From: a virus
Virus record (IMG/VR): IMGVR_UViG_3300046167_000148
Coordinates: 1-36,433 of that record
DNA length: 36,433 nt
Strand: one strand, 5' to 3'
The translations under genes and the position numbers were made by a program. The notes beneath the pieces were generated by a model. The model was given only the letters and a program-made list of their open reading frames with translations, did not search any database and was not told the origin of the DNA. Shown in pieces: positions 26,837 to 31,957 of the stretch. Positions within the stretch are counted from its first letter, which is position 1; each line of letters begins with the position of its first letter.

Positions 26837-27136
26837 ATGGCAAGCTCAAAAATAGGCGAAAAAATTGAAATATCTGACAATGGCGAAATTAACATAAAAC
26901 GCACGTTTGATGGTAGCCAAATGATGCGTGACGCAGAATACGCTCGTCAAAATTCAGATAATACTTTTGGCTCAGATCATAAGCTAATTGCACAAGTTGA
27001 TGCGGCTTTGATTGGCGTCTGGCTTAAAGAGGCTGGCGTGAGCTGGAGTGACACAGAGGCGGCTAATCAAGTCGTTAAACGAAAATTAACATCTGGCGAA
27101 TTTGCGGATCTAAGAGTATGGCAGGGCAAATACTAA
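26837..27136 (+). CDS. small protein of unknown function downstream of capsid
   Basis: The protein has 99 residues. It contains GEKIEISDNGEINIKRTFDGSQMMRDAEYARQNSDNTFGSDHKLIAQVDAALIGVWLKEAGVSW, and ends VKRKLTSGEFADLRVWQGKY. Proteins with this tail (KLxSxEFxxLRVWxG) occur beside SU10-like capsid genes. I know no activity for them. It starts 1 nt after the previous stop, and its own stop overlaps the next start. It is possibly a minor head protein. Confidence 0.55.
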   Translation: MASSKIGEKIEISDNGEINIKRTFDGSQMMRDAEYARQNSDNTFGSDHKLIAQVDAALIGVWLKEAGVSWSDTEAANQVVKRKLTSGEFADLRVWQGKY

Positions 27137-27360
27137 TGGAAATGGCAGACTTATGGAGTGGCACGCTCACATTCGCATTGGCGTTTGTGGGTTTTGTTTT
27201 ACGAGGATATGTTTTAGAGTTGAATAGATTACAAATTCTGTTGAACAGAACGCGAGAGGAATATGTGACAAAAGTTGATAGCAGTGCGTCAATGAATAGA
27301 TTGTTCAGCAGGCTCGACGCAATAGACGCTAAGATGGATCGCATATTAGAACGGAAGTAA
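27136..27360 (+). CDS. single-span membrane protein with coiled-coil tail
   Basis: The protein has 74 residues from the ATG overlapping the previous stop. ATG 27118 is also in frame. One transmembrane helix (LTFALAFVGFVLRGYVL) is followed by a charged coiled coil (LNRLQILLNRTREEYVTKVDSSASMNRLFSRLDAIDAKMDRILERK). The topology fits an inner-membrane spanin-like or holin-associated protein. No lipobox partner is seen beside it. It heads a long set of membrane and exported proteins reaching to the endolysin. Confidence 0.5.
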   Translation: MEMADLWSGTLTFALAFVGFVLRGYVLELNRLQILLNRTREEYVTKVDSSASMNRLFSRLDAIDAKMDRILERK

Positions 27361-27361
27361 A

Positions 27362-27913
27362 ATGCTACGTTTTCTTATAGTAAGTTTTTTCATTATTTTT
27401 GGCAGTTTTGTTTACGCTGAAGATGACACAATAAATACGAATACTAATATAAATTCCAGTGGGTCTATGGATACAACTATACAAAGCCCACCACCATCAG
27501 CAATCTCACCACAAGTTAGCACAAGCGGATCTGACTTGTGCGTCGTGGGGATCTCAGGAGCAGTACAGACGCAGATATTAGGCATCTCTGGCGGCAAAAC
27601 TGTAAAGGACTTAAACTGTGAACGTATTAGGGCAAGCAAATTACTCAGCGATTTAGGAATGCGTGTGGCTAGTGTGTCACTGTTATGTGCCGATGATAGG
27701 GTCAAAGAGGCAATGAAAAACGCTGGCACGCCCTGCCCAATCAATGGAAAAATAGGAGATGAGGCCAGACTTGAATGGGAGATGAAAGCTGTGGAGGCGC
27801 GTATTAGCGAAGACCAGAAAAATCTAGTAGAAAGGCTGTTTGATGAACAAGCTGAAACAAAAGTTGGGCTGGGTGTCATCATTGGCACTCTGTTTATGTT
27901 ACTCTTACTCTAA
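27362..27913 (+). CDS. exported protein with C-terminal membrane anchor
   Basis: The protein has 183 residues. The N-terminal signal peptide (MLRFLIVSFFIIFGSFVYAEDD, predicted cut after YA) is followed by a Ser/Pro-rich linker, a domain with four cysteines (DLCVVGIS, LNCERIR, LLCADDR, TPCPING) and a helical stretch. It ends in a hydrophobic helix (VGLGVIIGTLFMLLLL) at the very C-terminus. Two disulphides in the periplasm are plausible. Its 3' end overlaps the next gene by 71 nt. No family recognised. Confidence 0.6.
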   Translation: MLRFLIVSFFIIFGSFVYAEDDTINTNTNINSSGSMDTTIQSPPPSAISPQVSTSGSDLCVVGISGAVQTQILGISGGKTVKDLNCERIRASKLLSDLGMRVASVSLLCADDRVKEAMKNAGTPCPINGKIGDEARLEWEMKAVEARISEDQKNLVERLFDEQAETKVGLGVIIGTLFMLLLL

Positions 27914-28718
27914 CGCAGAGCCATACAGTTATTGGGCAAGCACCAATGCCGCCAAAAATGGTTTAAGCTGGGGGATGTCATCTGTCTTACCATCAATTGG
28001 CGGCGTCGATATAAATGGCCTGATTTACAGATACACTACAGAAAAGGAAACAGACGCGGACATGAAGGTTACTGTGGGTAATCTAAACTTTGGCGGCGAT
28101 GGATACTTATTTAAGGAGACTGACGATTGGTCGGGCGTTCCATCAAATACAATCACGAAGTCATTTCCATTAAACAATATTCCGCTAGAAAATTGGGGTG
28201 ATGGGTCTATCACAGTTGAGGGCGAGGGTACTGTCAAAGATGCTACAGTTGTATATACATTCCGCGTTGACGAATGTTATGACCCACAGCTAAATCCAAG
28301 TTGCGCTGGGTATAAGAAACCTATCCCAGAGATCCCAGAGGTTGAGGTTTATAATGCACTGGAAGACGACGCAGTTGTCGATGCAATCCAAGAGGAAGAA
28401 TACGAATACCCAGACGAGGCTAAGATCCCAGAGGATGACGAGGACGACGATAAGCCAACAAAAATAGAGCTGGGTCTGATGTCGGCTGAGAATGCATTGA
28501 CTATGTTTCAAGATTATAATCAAAACGAGCTTATCAACATGATTAACAATCAAACCAATTTGCAATCATACTATGATCTTGCTCTAAATGGTGGTATATA
28601 CAAAGACAAGTATCAGCTAAGTCAAAACCAAATGCCAGATAATAAGAAGGCATTGCGTAATAATTTAGCACAACAACTAAAGCATGAACAAATGGTAGAC
28701 ATGCAGTACAATAAGTGA
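27843..28718 (+). CDS. exported protein with acidic domain
   Basis: This protein of about 291 residues starts at ATG 27843. A TTG one codon upstream is also possible. The signal peptide MNKLKQKLGWVSSLALCLCY ends at SNA-EP. The first half is beta-rich with aromatic turns (YWASTNAAKNGLSWGM, FGGDGYLFKETDDWSG) and one Cys pair (DECYDPQLNPSCAGY). The second half is very acidic (EEEYEYPDEAKIPEDDEDDDKPTKIELGL) and ends in a Gln/Asn-rich helical tail. It is not recognised. The signal peptide is encoded inside the previous gene's membrane-anchor codons. Confidence 0.6.
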   Translation: MNKLKQKLGWVSSLALCLCYSYSNAEPYSYWASTNAAKNGLSWGMSSVLPSIGGVDINGLIYRYTTEKETDADMKVTVGNLNFGGDGYLFKETDDWSGVPSNTITKSFPLNNIPLENWGDGSITVEGEGTVKDATVVYTFRVDECYDPQLNPSCAGYKKPIPEIPEVEVYNALEDDAVVDAIQEEEYEYPDEAKIPEDDEDDDKPTKIELGLMSAENALTMFQDYNQNELINMINNQTNLQSYYDLALNGGIYKDKYQLSQNQMPDNKKALRNNLAQQLKHEQMVDMQYNK

Positions 28719-28725
28719 GGTTAAT

Positions 28726-29217
28726 ATGAAATATTTAGCAATACCACTATTAGCACTAGCTACACCAGCTTTTGCAGATAGTGTCGATATAGTGGGCAAC
28801 GTGTCTGCAAAGTGTATAATTCAGACAACCAAAAGTGGTGTATTCGGATCTCCAACGGCAAATAAGTTAAGCACAAGCCCAAGTGATGGCGGAATACATC
28901 CAGAGGTTAGGATAGATGTGGCAATTGCAAACAGCTACACAGCTAATATTACGCATCCTACAACATTTACCTCATCACCATCCCTAAATGACACTGTGAC
29001 GTGGACAGGATCTGTCAGCGTCGTTAATACGAGTGACGCGGCTATGTCATCATATGATACCAACAAGACCACTGCTGGGGCTACTACAAGCTACTCGTTA
29101 ACGACTGCTGGCTCTACTTGGTTTGCAATATCAAGCGTTGCTGAATATGGTGGCGGCAAGCCGTTTACAGGCGGAACGTATACAGCTCAGGCTACAATAT
29201 CGTGTATACCTACCTAA
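28726..29217 (+). CDS. exported beta protein resembling spore-coat U/fimbrial subunits
   Basis: The protein has 163 residues. The signal peptide MKYLAIPLLALATPAFA is cut before DS. The mature part is all beta and Thr/Ser-rich, starts VDIVGNVSAKCIIQTTKSGVFG and ends FTGGTYTAQATISCIPT. The two cysteines at the ends could form the single disulphide typical of type 1 pilin and SCPU-domain subunits, and the ending YTAxxTISC is similar to that of such proteins. SD GTGAGG. The next gene encodes another exported protein that could be its partner. Confidence 0.55.
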   Translation: MKYLAIPLLALATPAFADSVDIVGNVSAKCIIQTTKSGVFGSPTANKLSTSPSDGGIHPEVRIDVAIANSYTANITHPTTFTSSPSLNDTVTWTGSVSVVNTSDAAMSSYDTNKTTAGATTSYSLTTAGSTWFAISSVAEYGGGKPFTGGTYTAQATISCIPT

Positions 29218-29594
29218 AAGCACTTGTAATCATTACGTTATTGGGGTCTGGCGTATCTGCTCACGAACAGACCCCAGCCTACCCAAAAAAGCAGTATTCC
29301 ACAGTGGATGGAATTGTTAAGTACGAGTTATCTATATTTAACTCAAGGGAAGAGGTAAAGTATTACCAAATTGGTGTATTTGATAAAAATTTTGTGGGTC
29401 TTCCATTTTCGTCAAAATATAGGATAATGAAAGTCGATTACAAAACGAGAGTAAATTTTGATGTATATGTTAGGAAAGTTGATTTGGATCGAGCAATGTA
29501 TATTTGCACAAAATCAAAATTACTAAAAGATAACAAATCTAAGCCATTTGTGTCATCTTTGATATGCTCAAAAATTATGGAGGGAACTAAATGA
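29202..29594 (+). CDS. exported protein, possibly pilus-chaperone-like
   Basis: This 130-residue protein begins with GTG inside the previous gene's 3' end (16-nt overlap). Signal peptide MYTYLKALVIITLLGSGVSA-HE. The mature part has alternating strands (VKYELSIFNSREEVKYYQIGVFDKNFVGLPFSSKYRIMKVDYKTRVNFDVYVRKVD, then RAMYICTKSK). It has one Cys pair (YICTK...LICSK) and resembles the N-terminal Ig domain of periplasmic pilus chaperones. The resemblance is by pattern only. Confidence 0.5.
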   Translation: MYTYLKALVIITLLGSGVSAHEQTPAYPKKQYSTVDGIVKYELSIFNSREEVKYYQIGVFDKNFVGLPFSSKYRIMKVDYKTRVNFDVYVRKVDLDRAMYICTKSKLLKDNKSKPFVSSLICSKIMEGTK

Positions 29595-29983
29595 AATATG
29601 CAATCATTCTATCTTTAATTGCTGGCAGTGCGTTTGCCGATAGCTCGTCACTGTCTCTGGCGTTACCGACGCCAAATCTGAATACACAATCCGACAGAAT
29701 AAGATCTGGCAGTATTGAATGCTCAAACTCTATCTCAGGCTCGACACTTTTGGAATACGGCTTAACTGGCCTGCTGTCTGGCCTTAACACTGACGCGAGA
29801 GGCAAAGATATTGGCGTTTATGCTCGCATTGTTATTCCACTGAATGCACCAAAAAAGCGTATTGAGTGCCAGAAACTATTTGAGGTGGAGCTGTTGCAAC
29901 GCAAAATGGAAATTCGCATGTTGCAGGAAGAGCTGGACGCCATGAAAAACTTGCAATCTTCAGAAATGGAATTTGAGAACTAA
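29591..29983 (+). CDS. exported protein with C-terminal coiled coil
   Basis: The protein has 130 residues. Signal peptide MKYAIILSLIAGSAFA-DS has the same AFA-DS site as the protein at 28726. The mature part is SGSIECSNSISGSTLLEYGLTGLLSG, then VYARIVIPLNAPKKRIECQKLFEVELLQRKMEIRMLQEELDAMKN. A beta domain with one Cys pair leads into a coiled coil. SD GGAGGGAAC. It overlaps the next gene by one base. An outer-membrane or periplasmic location is likely. Function unknown. Confidence 0.55.
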   Translation: MKYAIILSLIAGSAFADSSSLSLALPTPNLNTQSDRIRSGSIECSNSISGSTLLEYGLTGLLSGLNTDARGKDIGVYARIVIPLNAPKKRIECQKLFEVELLQRKMEIRMLQEELDAMKNLQSSEMEFEN

Positions 29984-30495
29984 TGGTCGATACAACTAAA
30001 ATTGCAGATGGTATTGATGGTTTAGCTGACCGCCAACTTAAAGCTGGGGGCATGAAGTTGACGGCTGGCTCTATACTAGCAATATTTGCATTCCTGTCTA
30101 CAGTTGGCTCTGGCTTATATGGTGGCCTGCTGATGTGGCAAAAGATCGAAGAGCTGGCTAATTTAGACATATCCGCATACCAACAGCAAATGGATGTGAT
30201 GGATGCAAAAGTTACAGGCATATCAGAGAAGGTCGAGGAGAGCGTAGAATATAGCCGTGATATTAAAAATAATTTACGTGATGATCTATTGCGCGTTGAA
30301 CAGCAATCAGATCGGATTGAGACAATGGTTCGTAAGACTGAGGATAAAGTCAGGGAAATGATTGATAAGGCTGAGGTGCGCTTTGAAAATCAACGAGAAC
30401 GTGTTAGAGTTTCACAAAGCGGCGAGATGAAAGAACTTGAAGATAAATTAACGAAGAAACTACAAAGGGCGCTAGACAACCCTCTGGCGGATTAA
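29983..30495 (+). CDS. membrane-anchored coiled-coil protein (lysis region)
   Basis: The protein has 170 residues. An N-terminal amphipathic segment (IADGIDGLADRQLKAGGMKL) is followed by one transmembrane helix (LTAGSILAIFAFLSTVGSGLYGGLLMW, about residues 25-50). Then come some 115 residues of charged coiled coil (DVMDAKVTGISEKVEESVEYSRDIKNNLRDDLLRVEQQSDRIETMV). Such proteins are frequent before phage holins and may act as i-spanin or holin regulator. It is adjacent to the EF-hand membrane protein and holin genes. Confidence 0.5.
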   Translation: MVDTTKIADGIDGLADRQLKAGGMKLTAGSILAIFAFLSTVGSGLYGGLLMWQKIEELANLDISAYQQQMDVMDAKVTGISEKVEESVEYSRDIKNNLRDDLLRVEQQSDRIETMVRKTEDKVREMIDKAEVRFENQRERVRVSQSGEMKELEDKLTKKLQRALDNPLAD

Positions 30496-30496
30496 C

Positions 30497-30814
30497 ATGG
30501 ATGAATTTAAAAAATTTGACGTAGATGGTAATGGATCAATTGATCAGGCAGAATGGGATCGCATGGCGCTGGAAGATAGGCGTTTACGGATGCAGGATGA
30601 GGATATGCAAAGGGACACGATTAGGTCAATGAGTTGGTTCGCATTGTTTGGAATGTTGCTTTATCCATTTGCTGTGATTGGCGCAGAAGTTTTAGGATTA
30701 ACAGAAGCCGCTAAAATTTTAGGATCTATGGCGAGTATATACTTTGTAAGTGTAGCGGCCTTAGTATCTGTGTTCTTTGGAGCATCAGCTTTAACGAAAG
30801 GAAAAGATAAATGA
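30497..30814 (+). CDS. EF-hand two-span membrane protein
   Basis: The protein has 105 residues. A complete EF-hand loop sits near the N-terminus: D8, D10, N12, S14, D16 and E19 in DVDGNGSIDQAE. Two transmembrane helices follow (MSWFALFGMLLYPFAVIGAEVLGL; MASIYFVSVAALVSVFFGASAL). Similar short EF-hand membrane proteins are common beside holins in marine phages. The calcium-binding residues are all present, so calcium or Mg sensing is plausible. Its stop overlaps the holin start by 4 nt (ATGA). Confidence 0.65.
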   Translation: MDEFKKFDVDGNGSIDQAEWDRMALEDRRLRMQDEDMQRDTIRSMSWFALFGMLLYPFAVIGAEVLGLTEAAKILGSMASIYFVSVAALVSVFFGASALTKGKDK

Positions 30815-31173
30815 TAGCTGGACTAGGATTGTTAGGTAAAGTTGCAGATCTTGCTGGAACTATGATCGAGGGCAAGACTGCTGTGAAGCAGGCTGAAGCC
30901 CAAACAAAAATGAAAATAGCGACAGGTGAGCTTGATTGGGATCTAGCCGCCATGAAAGCTACAGATAATAGCTTGAAAGATGAGTGGATAACTCTGCTCT
31001 TCTCGATACCATTAATTTTAGCATTTTGTGGTGATTGGGGTAATGAAATTGTGCAAGATGGTTTTGCCGCACTATCTAATATGCCTGATTGGTATCAATA
31101 TAGCCTTGGTGGCATTGTGAGTGCATCAATTGGGATGCGTGGTGTAAGTAAATATTTTGGGGGTAAAAAATAA
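30811..31173 (+). CDS. holin (3TM family)
   Basis: The protein has 120 residues. IAGLGLLGKVADLAGTMIEGKTAVKQAEAQTKMKIATGELDWDLAAMKATDNSLKDEWITLLFSIPLILAFCGDW and then YQYSLGGIVSASIGMRGVSKYFG match the three-span holin family known from gene-transfer agents and alphaproteobacterial phages. An amphipathic first helix, a linker ending in SLKDEW and two membrane helices are visible. It permeabilises the inner membrane so that the endolysin encoded at 31340 reaches the wall. Confidence 0.75.
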   Translation: MIAGLGLLGKVADLAGTMIEGKTAVKQAEAQTKMKIATGELDWDLAAMKATDNSLKDEWITLLFSIPLILAFCGDWGNEIVQDGFAALSNMPDWYQYSLGGIVSASIGMRGVSKYFGGKK

Positions 31174-31339: not shown

Positions 31340-31957
31340 ATGACAGAAGCAATGAAAAAACTTCAAGATAGAATTGGAGTTGGGGCAGACGGACATTTTG
31401 GGAAGAACACGGCTAAGGCCATTGCCCAGCACTTCGAGCTATCAAATGAACGAGCCGCCCACCTAATGGGTCAGGCGAGCCACGAAAGCGGTCACTGGCG
31501 GCATACAAGAGAAAATCTGAACTACAGCGCGGATAGTATGATGCGCGTCTGGCCTAGTCGATTTCCTGATCTGGCGTCCTGCGAGGGATATTCTCGAAAC
31601 CCAACAGCATTAGCTAACAAAGTTTATGGTGGTCGCATGGGCAACAATACTGAAAATGATGGCGCTTTATTTTCTGGAAAAGGTTATCTTATGATCACAG
31701 GGAAAAATAATTACAGGGCATTCAGCTCTGACATGGGCTTACCTGAGATTATGACAGATCCAGATCTGGTGGCTACAGATTATGCTTTTGACACGGCAAT
31801 GTGGTTCTTTAATAAAAACAAGTTATTCGACATTGCAGACGATGGTGTGAACGACGAAACAATATTGAAGATCTGTCGCCGTGTGAATGGTGGTACACAT
31901 GGTTTATTGGATAGAACTTCTGAGACAAACAAGATTTATGAGTGGCTCAACGCATAA
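31340..31957 (+). CDS. GH19-type endolysin
   Basis: The protein has 205 residues. The N-terminal 30 (KLQDRIGVGADGHFGKNTAKAIAQHF) resemble a short peptidoglycan-binding repeat. The catalytic domain has the Glu in MGQASHESGHW (about residue 49), NYSADSMMRVWPSRFP, YGGRMGNNTENDGALFSGKGYLMITGKNNYR, and ends RRVNGGTHGLLDR. Compared with usual GH19 lysozymes the QLTG motif reads MITG and the GRG reads GKG, small departures. No signal peptide, so it depends on the holin. It hydrolyses peptidoglycan for release. Confidence 0.85.
   Translation: MTEAMKKLQDRIGVGADGHFGKNTAKAIAQHFELSNERAAHLMGQASHESGHWRHTRENLNYSADSMMRVWPSRFPDLASCEGYSRNPTALANKVYGGRMGNNTENDGALFSGKGYLMITGKNNYRAFSSDMGLPEIMTDPDLVATDYAFDTAMWFFNKNKLFDIADDGVNDETILKICRRVNGGTHGLLDRTSETNKIYEWLNA

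Follow-up and report, generated by a model that had tools for sequence, protein, structure and literature searches.

A six-gene envelope cassette with a predicted PapD-like chaperone domain beside the lysis genes of marine phages, and its tentative role in the outer-membrane step of lysis

Marine phages carry export machines between families, as the parts consulted of two reports describe for the curli (type VIII secretion system, T8SS) modules of pelagiphages and methylophages (PMC9599517, PMC9004378), and chaperones of the FGL (F1-G1 long) type are marked, in the part consulted of a third, by an F1-G1 disulphide, a long F1-G1 loop and an N-terminal extension (PMC4133393). Here we describe a block of six genes, A to F, on the plus strand of a 36,433-nucleotide stretch of viral DNA (IMG/VR record IMGVR_UViG_3300046167_000148, positions 1 to 36,433; this whole stretch is hereafter the window), in which five predicted exported proteins, one with the predicted fold of the N-terminal domain of a PapD-like chaperone, are followed by a membrane-anchored coiled-coil protein and then by lysis genes. 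No description of the block was found in the titles and abstract openings of the literature searched (PMC9599517, PMC9004378, PMC4133393 and PMC9636201 among them), nor one of a phage-encoded PapD-like chaperone in those of the open-access literature searched. We tentatively read A to F as a late envelope-assembly cassette that would provide host lysis with a lipoprotein-free outer-membrane step, a reading that leads our list while falling short of probable.

A first-pass annotation, made from the sequence alone, had proposed five consecutive genes for exported proteins that overlap or nearly touch, and their positions and frames are confirmed: A (27362..27913), B (27843..28718), C (28726..29217), D (29202..29594, with a GTG start) and E (29591..29983). 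A and B overlap by 71 bases, 7 bases separate B from C, C and D overlap by 16 bases and D and E by 4, and E shares 1 base with F (29983..30495), a sixth gene that belongs to the block although the annotation had ended it at E. For each of A to F, all computed pairs have a proportion of nonsynonymous changes (pN) well below that of synonymous changes (pS), and these are therefore real genes under purifying selection. No Pfam family lies above cut-off for A to E.

Export signals were sought by a home-made rule that requires a positive n-region, a hydrophobic h-region, and small residues at both -3 and -1. Four of the 49 window genes pass it, exactly A, B, D and E; the other 44 besides C fail, and so does C itself, which has prolines in its h-region. 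Among relatives the rule is passed by 56 of 84 for A, 97 of 101 for B, 73 of 89 distinct sequences for C, 87 of 90 for D and 90 of 93 for E, and among controls by 0 of 74 for F, 0 of 70 for endolysins and 0 of 21 for capsid proteins, with 4 of 47 as antisense noise. Mature cysteines are invariant in all five families: four in A (18/18 alignment rows) and two each in B (13/13), C (42/42), D (50/50) and E (11/11). Overall, A to E carry predicted export signals and invariant cysteines of the disulphide type; the Sec-type signals and paired cysteines proposed at first pass stand, except that the signal of C fails in the window itself and is supported through its relatives.

D is a protein of 130 residues. 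Its AlphaFold2 (AF2) model, built on a 50-row alignment, is a single-domain beta sandwich with a mean predicted local distance difference test score (pLDDT) of 84.3 and a predicted template modelling score (pTM) of 0.74. A Foldseek search of this model against the PDB has fimbrial periplasmic chaperones in 17 of its first 19 rows (E-values 7.7e-4 to 8.3e-3), including SfaE, FimC, Caf1M, FaeE and SafB, the exceptions being a FixG-related protein at rank 1 (6.2e-4) and a superoxide dismutase at rank 5. VIA gave Z scores of 10.4 to Caf1M (4b0m) and 10.1 to FimC (4dwh), with chaperones in 31 of 50 rows, and several of these align their residue 1 to residue 20 of D, adjoining the predicted mature start. 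Since an Ig domain of the exo-chitosanase CsxA (10.4) and MSP domains (10.2 for that of MOSPD2) reach the same level of Z, D is assigned at the level of the PapD-like/Ig superfamily only; folds missing from the VIA list are not counted as evidence against them. Against a viral model library the best row is a 133-residue protein (4.6e-5), with a 116-residue protein of phage Eowyn ninth. The model thus gives D the predicted fold of the N-terminal PapD-like chaperone domain.

D spans chaperone domain 1 and then ends, so that the second Ig domain is absent. Its Cys102 and Cys122, invariant in 50 of 50 rows, lie on the last two strands of the model, which are joined by a short loop (strand end at 107, next start at 116), and on the last strand V117, I121 and L125 alternate with S119 and S123, a pattern to be compared with the hydrophobic donor strand in G1. 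A Pfam search of 50 D members gave nothing at a meaningful level. The usher family PF00577 was found in none of 40 records (the window and 39 longer records picked for carrying the cassette), with a positive E. coli control; these records may be fragments and their hosts are unidentified. One relative of D (L028, 1852-2352) has an internal tandem duplication and was excluded from the folding alignment.

A glycine at position -14 is a mark of pilus subunits. C has this glycine in 42 of 42 rows, with tyrosine (41) or phenylalanine (1) at -12, no penultimate tyrosine, and a cysteine pair at 30/160, and by this sequence pattern it may be pilin-like. The AF2 model of C, on a 10-row alignment, failed, with a pLDDT of 42.2, and was not used for structure search. 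No credible match among PDB sequences came from profiles of A to E or of the Vibrio-phage C. E has two amphipathic strands of alternating hydrophobic residues between its invariant Cys44 and Cys93, followed by a predicted helical, coiled-coil-like end (the helix judged by eye), and matches the phrog_37374 profile (E-value 4.4e-9, compared with 1.2e-75 for Brizo and 1e-7 for Eowyn). E might insert into the outer membrane, and the hydrophobic alternation alone suggests that it may act as a pore or donate a strand.

By hydropathy and sequence, F has the layout of an inner-membrane spanin (i-spanin), an N-terminal membrane anchor followed by a long coiled coil, with NPL at its end. The first-pass statement that none of the five proteins resembles a spanin holds for A to E in that they are without a lipobox; the adjoining F, which it had overlooked, has this i-spanin layout. 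A, which has a phrog_20531 domain, ends in a C-terminal hydrophobic segment but has a type I signal, and so is without the lipobox of unimolecular spanins. B consists of an N-terminal domain, an acidic linker and a C-terminal tail with QMVDMQY at its end.

The block is widespread and keeps its order. Scans of IMG/VR gave 229 stretches related to C and, with an alignment of E, 429 related to E, so that the block or its E gene is present in hundreds of marine virus contigs; from each scan the best 80 were retained. Among 187 fetched loci, some of which derive from one contig, A-B-C-D-E-F occurs in order in 155, and 28 more have a contiguous part cut by the contig end. Thus the order is the same and unbroken in all 183 non-Vibrio loci over the length that each contig covers, and the other four are Vibrio phages with E, two of them with a detectable C. 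The window capsid protein, whose closest relative in a named phage is that of Octadecabacter Antarctic DB virus 2 (58.5%), occurs in 12 of the 39 longer records, and the window portal protein was matched in 13 of the 39, one of them marginally (1e-4). Because 27 of the 39 cassette records are without the window capsid protein, the block moves between phage lineages. The five-gene exported cassette proposed between capsid and lysis genes is thereby borne out by synteny as a conserved mobile unit, found in marine phages of several unrelated lineages and usually upstream of holin-like and endolysin genes.

In a genome collection with one genome for each of 84,980 species, the E query found two contigs only (L202 and L203), both from one Rhodobacteraceae metagenome bin, which is a hint at the host group or possibly viral contamination. 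Searches by tblastn of C, of D and of B against named phage records (50,697 for C) found nothing. Two of the fetched records have peculiarities of their own: L031 (G007, 61867 bases) has two portal genes, 82% and 80% identical to that of the window, which suggests a joined or chimeric contig, and L040 (G009) has its capsid and portal genes in several pieces with stops inside the portal gene, probably through sequencing errors.

The block is composite, with two modules, A-(B-like)-F and C-D-E. A relative of A is present in each of 11 named phage records, from six pelagiphages, two roseophages and three others. In five aligned pelagiphage-type records (HTVC202P, HTVC023P, HTVC033P, Mosig and S28-C10) the gene after A encodes a large B-like protein, and that for an F-like protein comes next, either at once or with a single tiny gene between; C-D-E is absent. 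All 15 aligned rows of F share the NPL ending, and five of them come from these records. Relatives in the capsid clade of the window (L293, L296, L303 and L305) also have A and F without C-D-E, and the gene between A and F in the two that were read (L293 and L303) encodes a B-like protein. Because A-(B-like)-F occurs without C-D-E, the latter sits between B and F as an insertion would. A and B would be the older and more widespread part of the block. The B-like proteins of pelagiphages and of L293 are similar in layout to window B; pelagiphage B was rejected as a sequence homologue (hhalign E-value 0.24), the likeness being one of layout only. The A relative of ctXG6705 (L106, 5848-6351) is unannotated, two small opposite-strand open reading frames (ORFs) being annotated in its place.

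The triplet C-D-E occurs without A, B and F in the Vibrio phages Brizo, vB_VhaS-tm and PS14A.1, whereas in Klebsiella phage Eowyn a D-like gene and E are followed by an unaligned C-like gene. Sequence comparison points firmly to kinship of E with its Vibrio-phage and Eowyn counterparts (phrog_37374; hhalign 3e-12) and gives good support for that of C with Vibrio-phage C (6e-8). The match of D to Vibrio D is weak (hhalign E-value 0.019, probability 2.4%), and their kinship, unproven by sequence, is suggested by gene order, overlap and the cysteine pair. A query with Eowyn E found no relative in IMG/VR, a Pfam scan of the Vibrio, Eowyn and pelagiphage relatives gave no family above cut-off, and a literature search for Thalassavirus gave no paper. 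In vB_VhaS-tm and PS14A.1 (L129 and L130, 3995-4282) E is annotated from an internal start, by which its export signal is lost, and Brizo E is annotated short as well. The separate histories of the two modules would suit a loose set of unrelated small exported accessory proteins that merely share a late operon; this we consider the least probable of the explanations weighed here, since 183 non-Vibrio loci in several lineages keep the contiguous order to the contig limits.

Downstream of the block the window encodes a protein with an EF-hand-like motif and membrane segments (30497..30814, plus strand, as are the genes that follow), which is a possible holin; a phrog_2524 membrane protein that is holin-like by its place (30811..31173); and an endolysin of the glycoside hydrolase family 19 (GH19) chitinase/lysozyme type (31340..31957; phrog_181 4e-45, PF00182 8e-7). 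An endolysin-like gene lies within a few genes downstream in five of six loci read (L155, L139, L061, L143 and L179; not L161). This EF-hand-like gene is conserved and in many loci separates F from the holin-like gene; a calcium-responsive lysis protein is conceivable. Before A, and outside the strict block, a small plus-strand gene (27118..27360; phrog_462 2e-5), kept there in many loci, encodes an N-terminal membrane segment followed by a coiled coil.

If the cassette serves lysis, D would receive C, the putative pilin-like subunit, in the periplasm and prevent its early aggregation or polymerisation, and the amphipathic hairpin of E would make this protein the outer-membrane partner, while its coiled coil could meet F. 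After the endolysin has removed the wall, an F-E-C assembly would link or disrupt both membranes in place of a spanin pair, and A and B may be an adaptor between envelope layers. Replacement of the outer-membrane spanin (o-spanin) by the cassette is likely enough to lead with, and is not proven. By a home-made rule of partial sensitivity, no lipobox ORF was found on the window coding strand or in A to F. The same scan of the coding strand, made on 78 cassette loci with distinct downstream sequence and 24 cassette-free capsid relatives with at least 4.5 kb downstream, gave lipoprotein (o-spanin-type) candidates in 9 of 78 versus 13 of 24 (Fisher p 4e-5 on raw counts). By eye, five of the 9 are the signal peptide of C, three are one odd 52-residue ORF and one is convincing (L194), and about nine of the 13 cassette-free candidates are convincing. 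The lone cassette locus of the capsid set scores only through the signal peptide of A, relatives with A only or with A and F only have a candidate in 3 of 3, and in 14 more cassette records and the window the rule found no credible lysis-region lipoprotein on the strand of the block.

Octadecabacter DB virus 2 is without A to F, and its lysozyme is followed by a membrane protein and a lipoprotein whose genes overlap. An o-spanin is annotated in Sulfitobacter phage phiGT1. In DB virus 2 the protein gp33 (L104, 14692-14928) is itself an unannotated o-spanin candidate; its annotated start omits the lipoprotein signal, and an upstream start restores a lipobox, LTAC.

Several observations weigh against assigning the cassette to lysis. 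Opposite-strand lipobox counts, taken as noise, are 16 of 78 for cassette loci and 3 of 24 for cassette-free ones; the rule detects a lysis-region lipoprotein in 2 of 7 cassette-free isolates and misses the annotated spanin of phiM5; 11 of the 24 cassette-free capsid relatives have neither cassette nor detected lipoprotein, one of which (L257) has a match to DB virus 2 gp33 that the rule missed; and the groups compared differ in phylogeny. Since the sensitivity of the rule is low and these 11 have neither, the absence of a lipoprotein is weak evidence. Brizo has C-D-E with a lipoprotein adjoining, and C-D-E of vB_VhaS-tm and D-E of Eowyn are not beside recognisable lysis genes. Furthermore, the fold of C is not established by its model, and binding of C by D is an inferred step. 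Strict exclusivity of cassette and lipoprotein was accordingly dropped, as Brizo has both, a lipoprotein ORF immediately precedes the A relative of roseophages CRP-207 and CRP-810, and many relatives have neither.

Alternatively, D might deliver C to the outer surface of the infected cell, with E as anchor or pore. There C would hide receptors, prevent superinfection and keep progeny from adsorbing again to spent cells. D resembles chaperones that deliver surface subunits, the B-like proteins of two phages have a carbohydrate-binding annotation, and C-D-E directly follows a large gene in three Vibrio phages, tail-fibre-like by reading only; genes of this kind are also present ahead of the block in loci examined gene by gene. 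Such a coat remains somewhat doubtful, as no usher was found in the 40 records, a block placed late, next to the lysis genes, would have little time to act in exclusion, and no PADLOC match was obtained, from a library that covers defence systems and not superinfection exclusion as such. The lysis role is placed narrowly ahead of surface masking because of the place of the block and the lipoprotein contrast. Of the functions suggested at first pass, host-envelope remodelling is the best broad label, superinfection blocking is possible, and nothing observed here speaks for decoration of virions after release.

An organelle for aggregation or secretion, like phage curli, in which C fibres trap sibling cells or E is an open pore, would have precedent in phage curli modules, which are exported, common to podo- and myoviruses and widespread in the sea in the parts consulted of the reports (PMC9599517, PMC9004378). 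We regard it as quite improbable, because no curli family, CsgG/CsgF included, matches A to F in Pfam at E-values up to 1 and no repeat-type fibre protein was noticed by eye. A more specific form of the lysis role, which we consider unlikely as a joint claim, is that C-D-E is a minimal chaperone-subunit pathway, essentially confined to phages, in which a PapD-like chaperone of one domain, a single pilin-like subunit and a small hairpin protein replacing both usher and outer-membrane lipoprotein would build a periplasmic structure that ruptures the outer membrane at lysis.

A role in lysis, if true, would provide a further outer-membrane route beside two-component and single-protein spanins, and a coat, if true, a phage-made pilus-like shield. 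On either reading a pilus-type chaperone domain enters phage biology, in a three-protein system open to test.

Compared with known systems, the fold of D is already known; for A and E there are only numbered families, phrog_20531 and phrog_37374, to which they belong by sequence and which are without known function and say nothing of the block. Unlike phage curli (T8SS) modules, the block has no CsgG/CsgF/CsgA match and has a PapD-like chaperone domain instead; like them, as far as the parts consulted describe them, it is an exported multi-gene envelope module carried between phage families. It differs from two-component spanins of the Rz/Rz1 type in having five extra exported proteins and no lipoprotein in A to F, and resembles them in its lysis-region place and in the anchor and coiled coil of F. 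D departs from the chaperones of chaperone-usher systems in its single domain, its phage-borne gene, the missing Pfam match and the usher not found in 40 records, and from FGL chaperones in its short loop between the last two strands and its lack of the N-terminal extension. It shares with PapD, FimC, Caf1M and SafB the predicted fold and the extent from the mature start to the end of domain 1, and with FGL chaperones, as described in the part consulted of the source, a cysteine pair on the last two strands, the F1-G1 place (PMC4133393).

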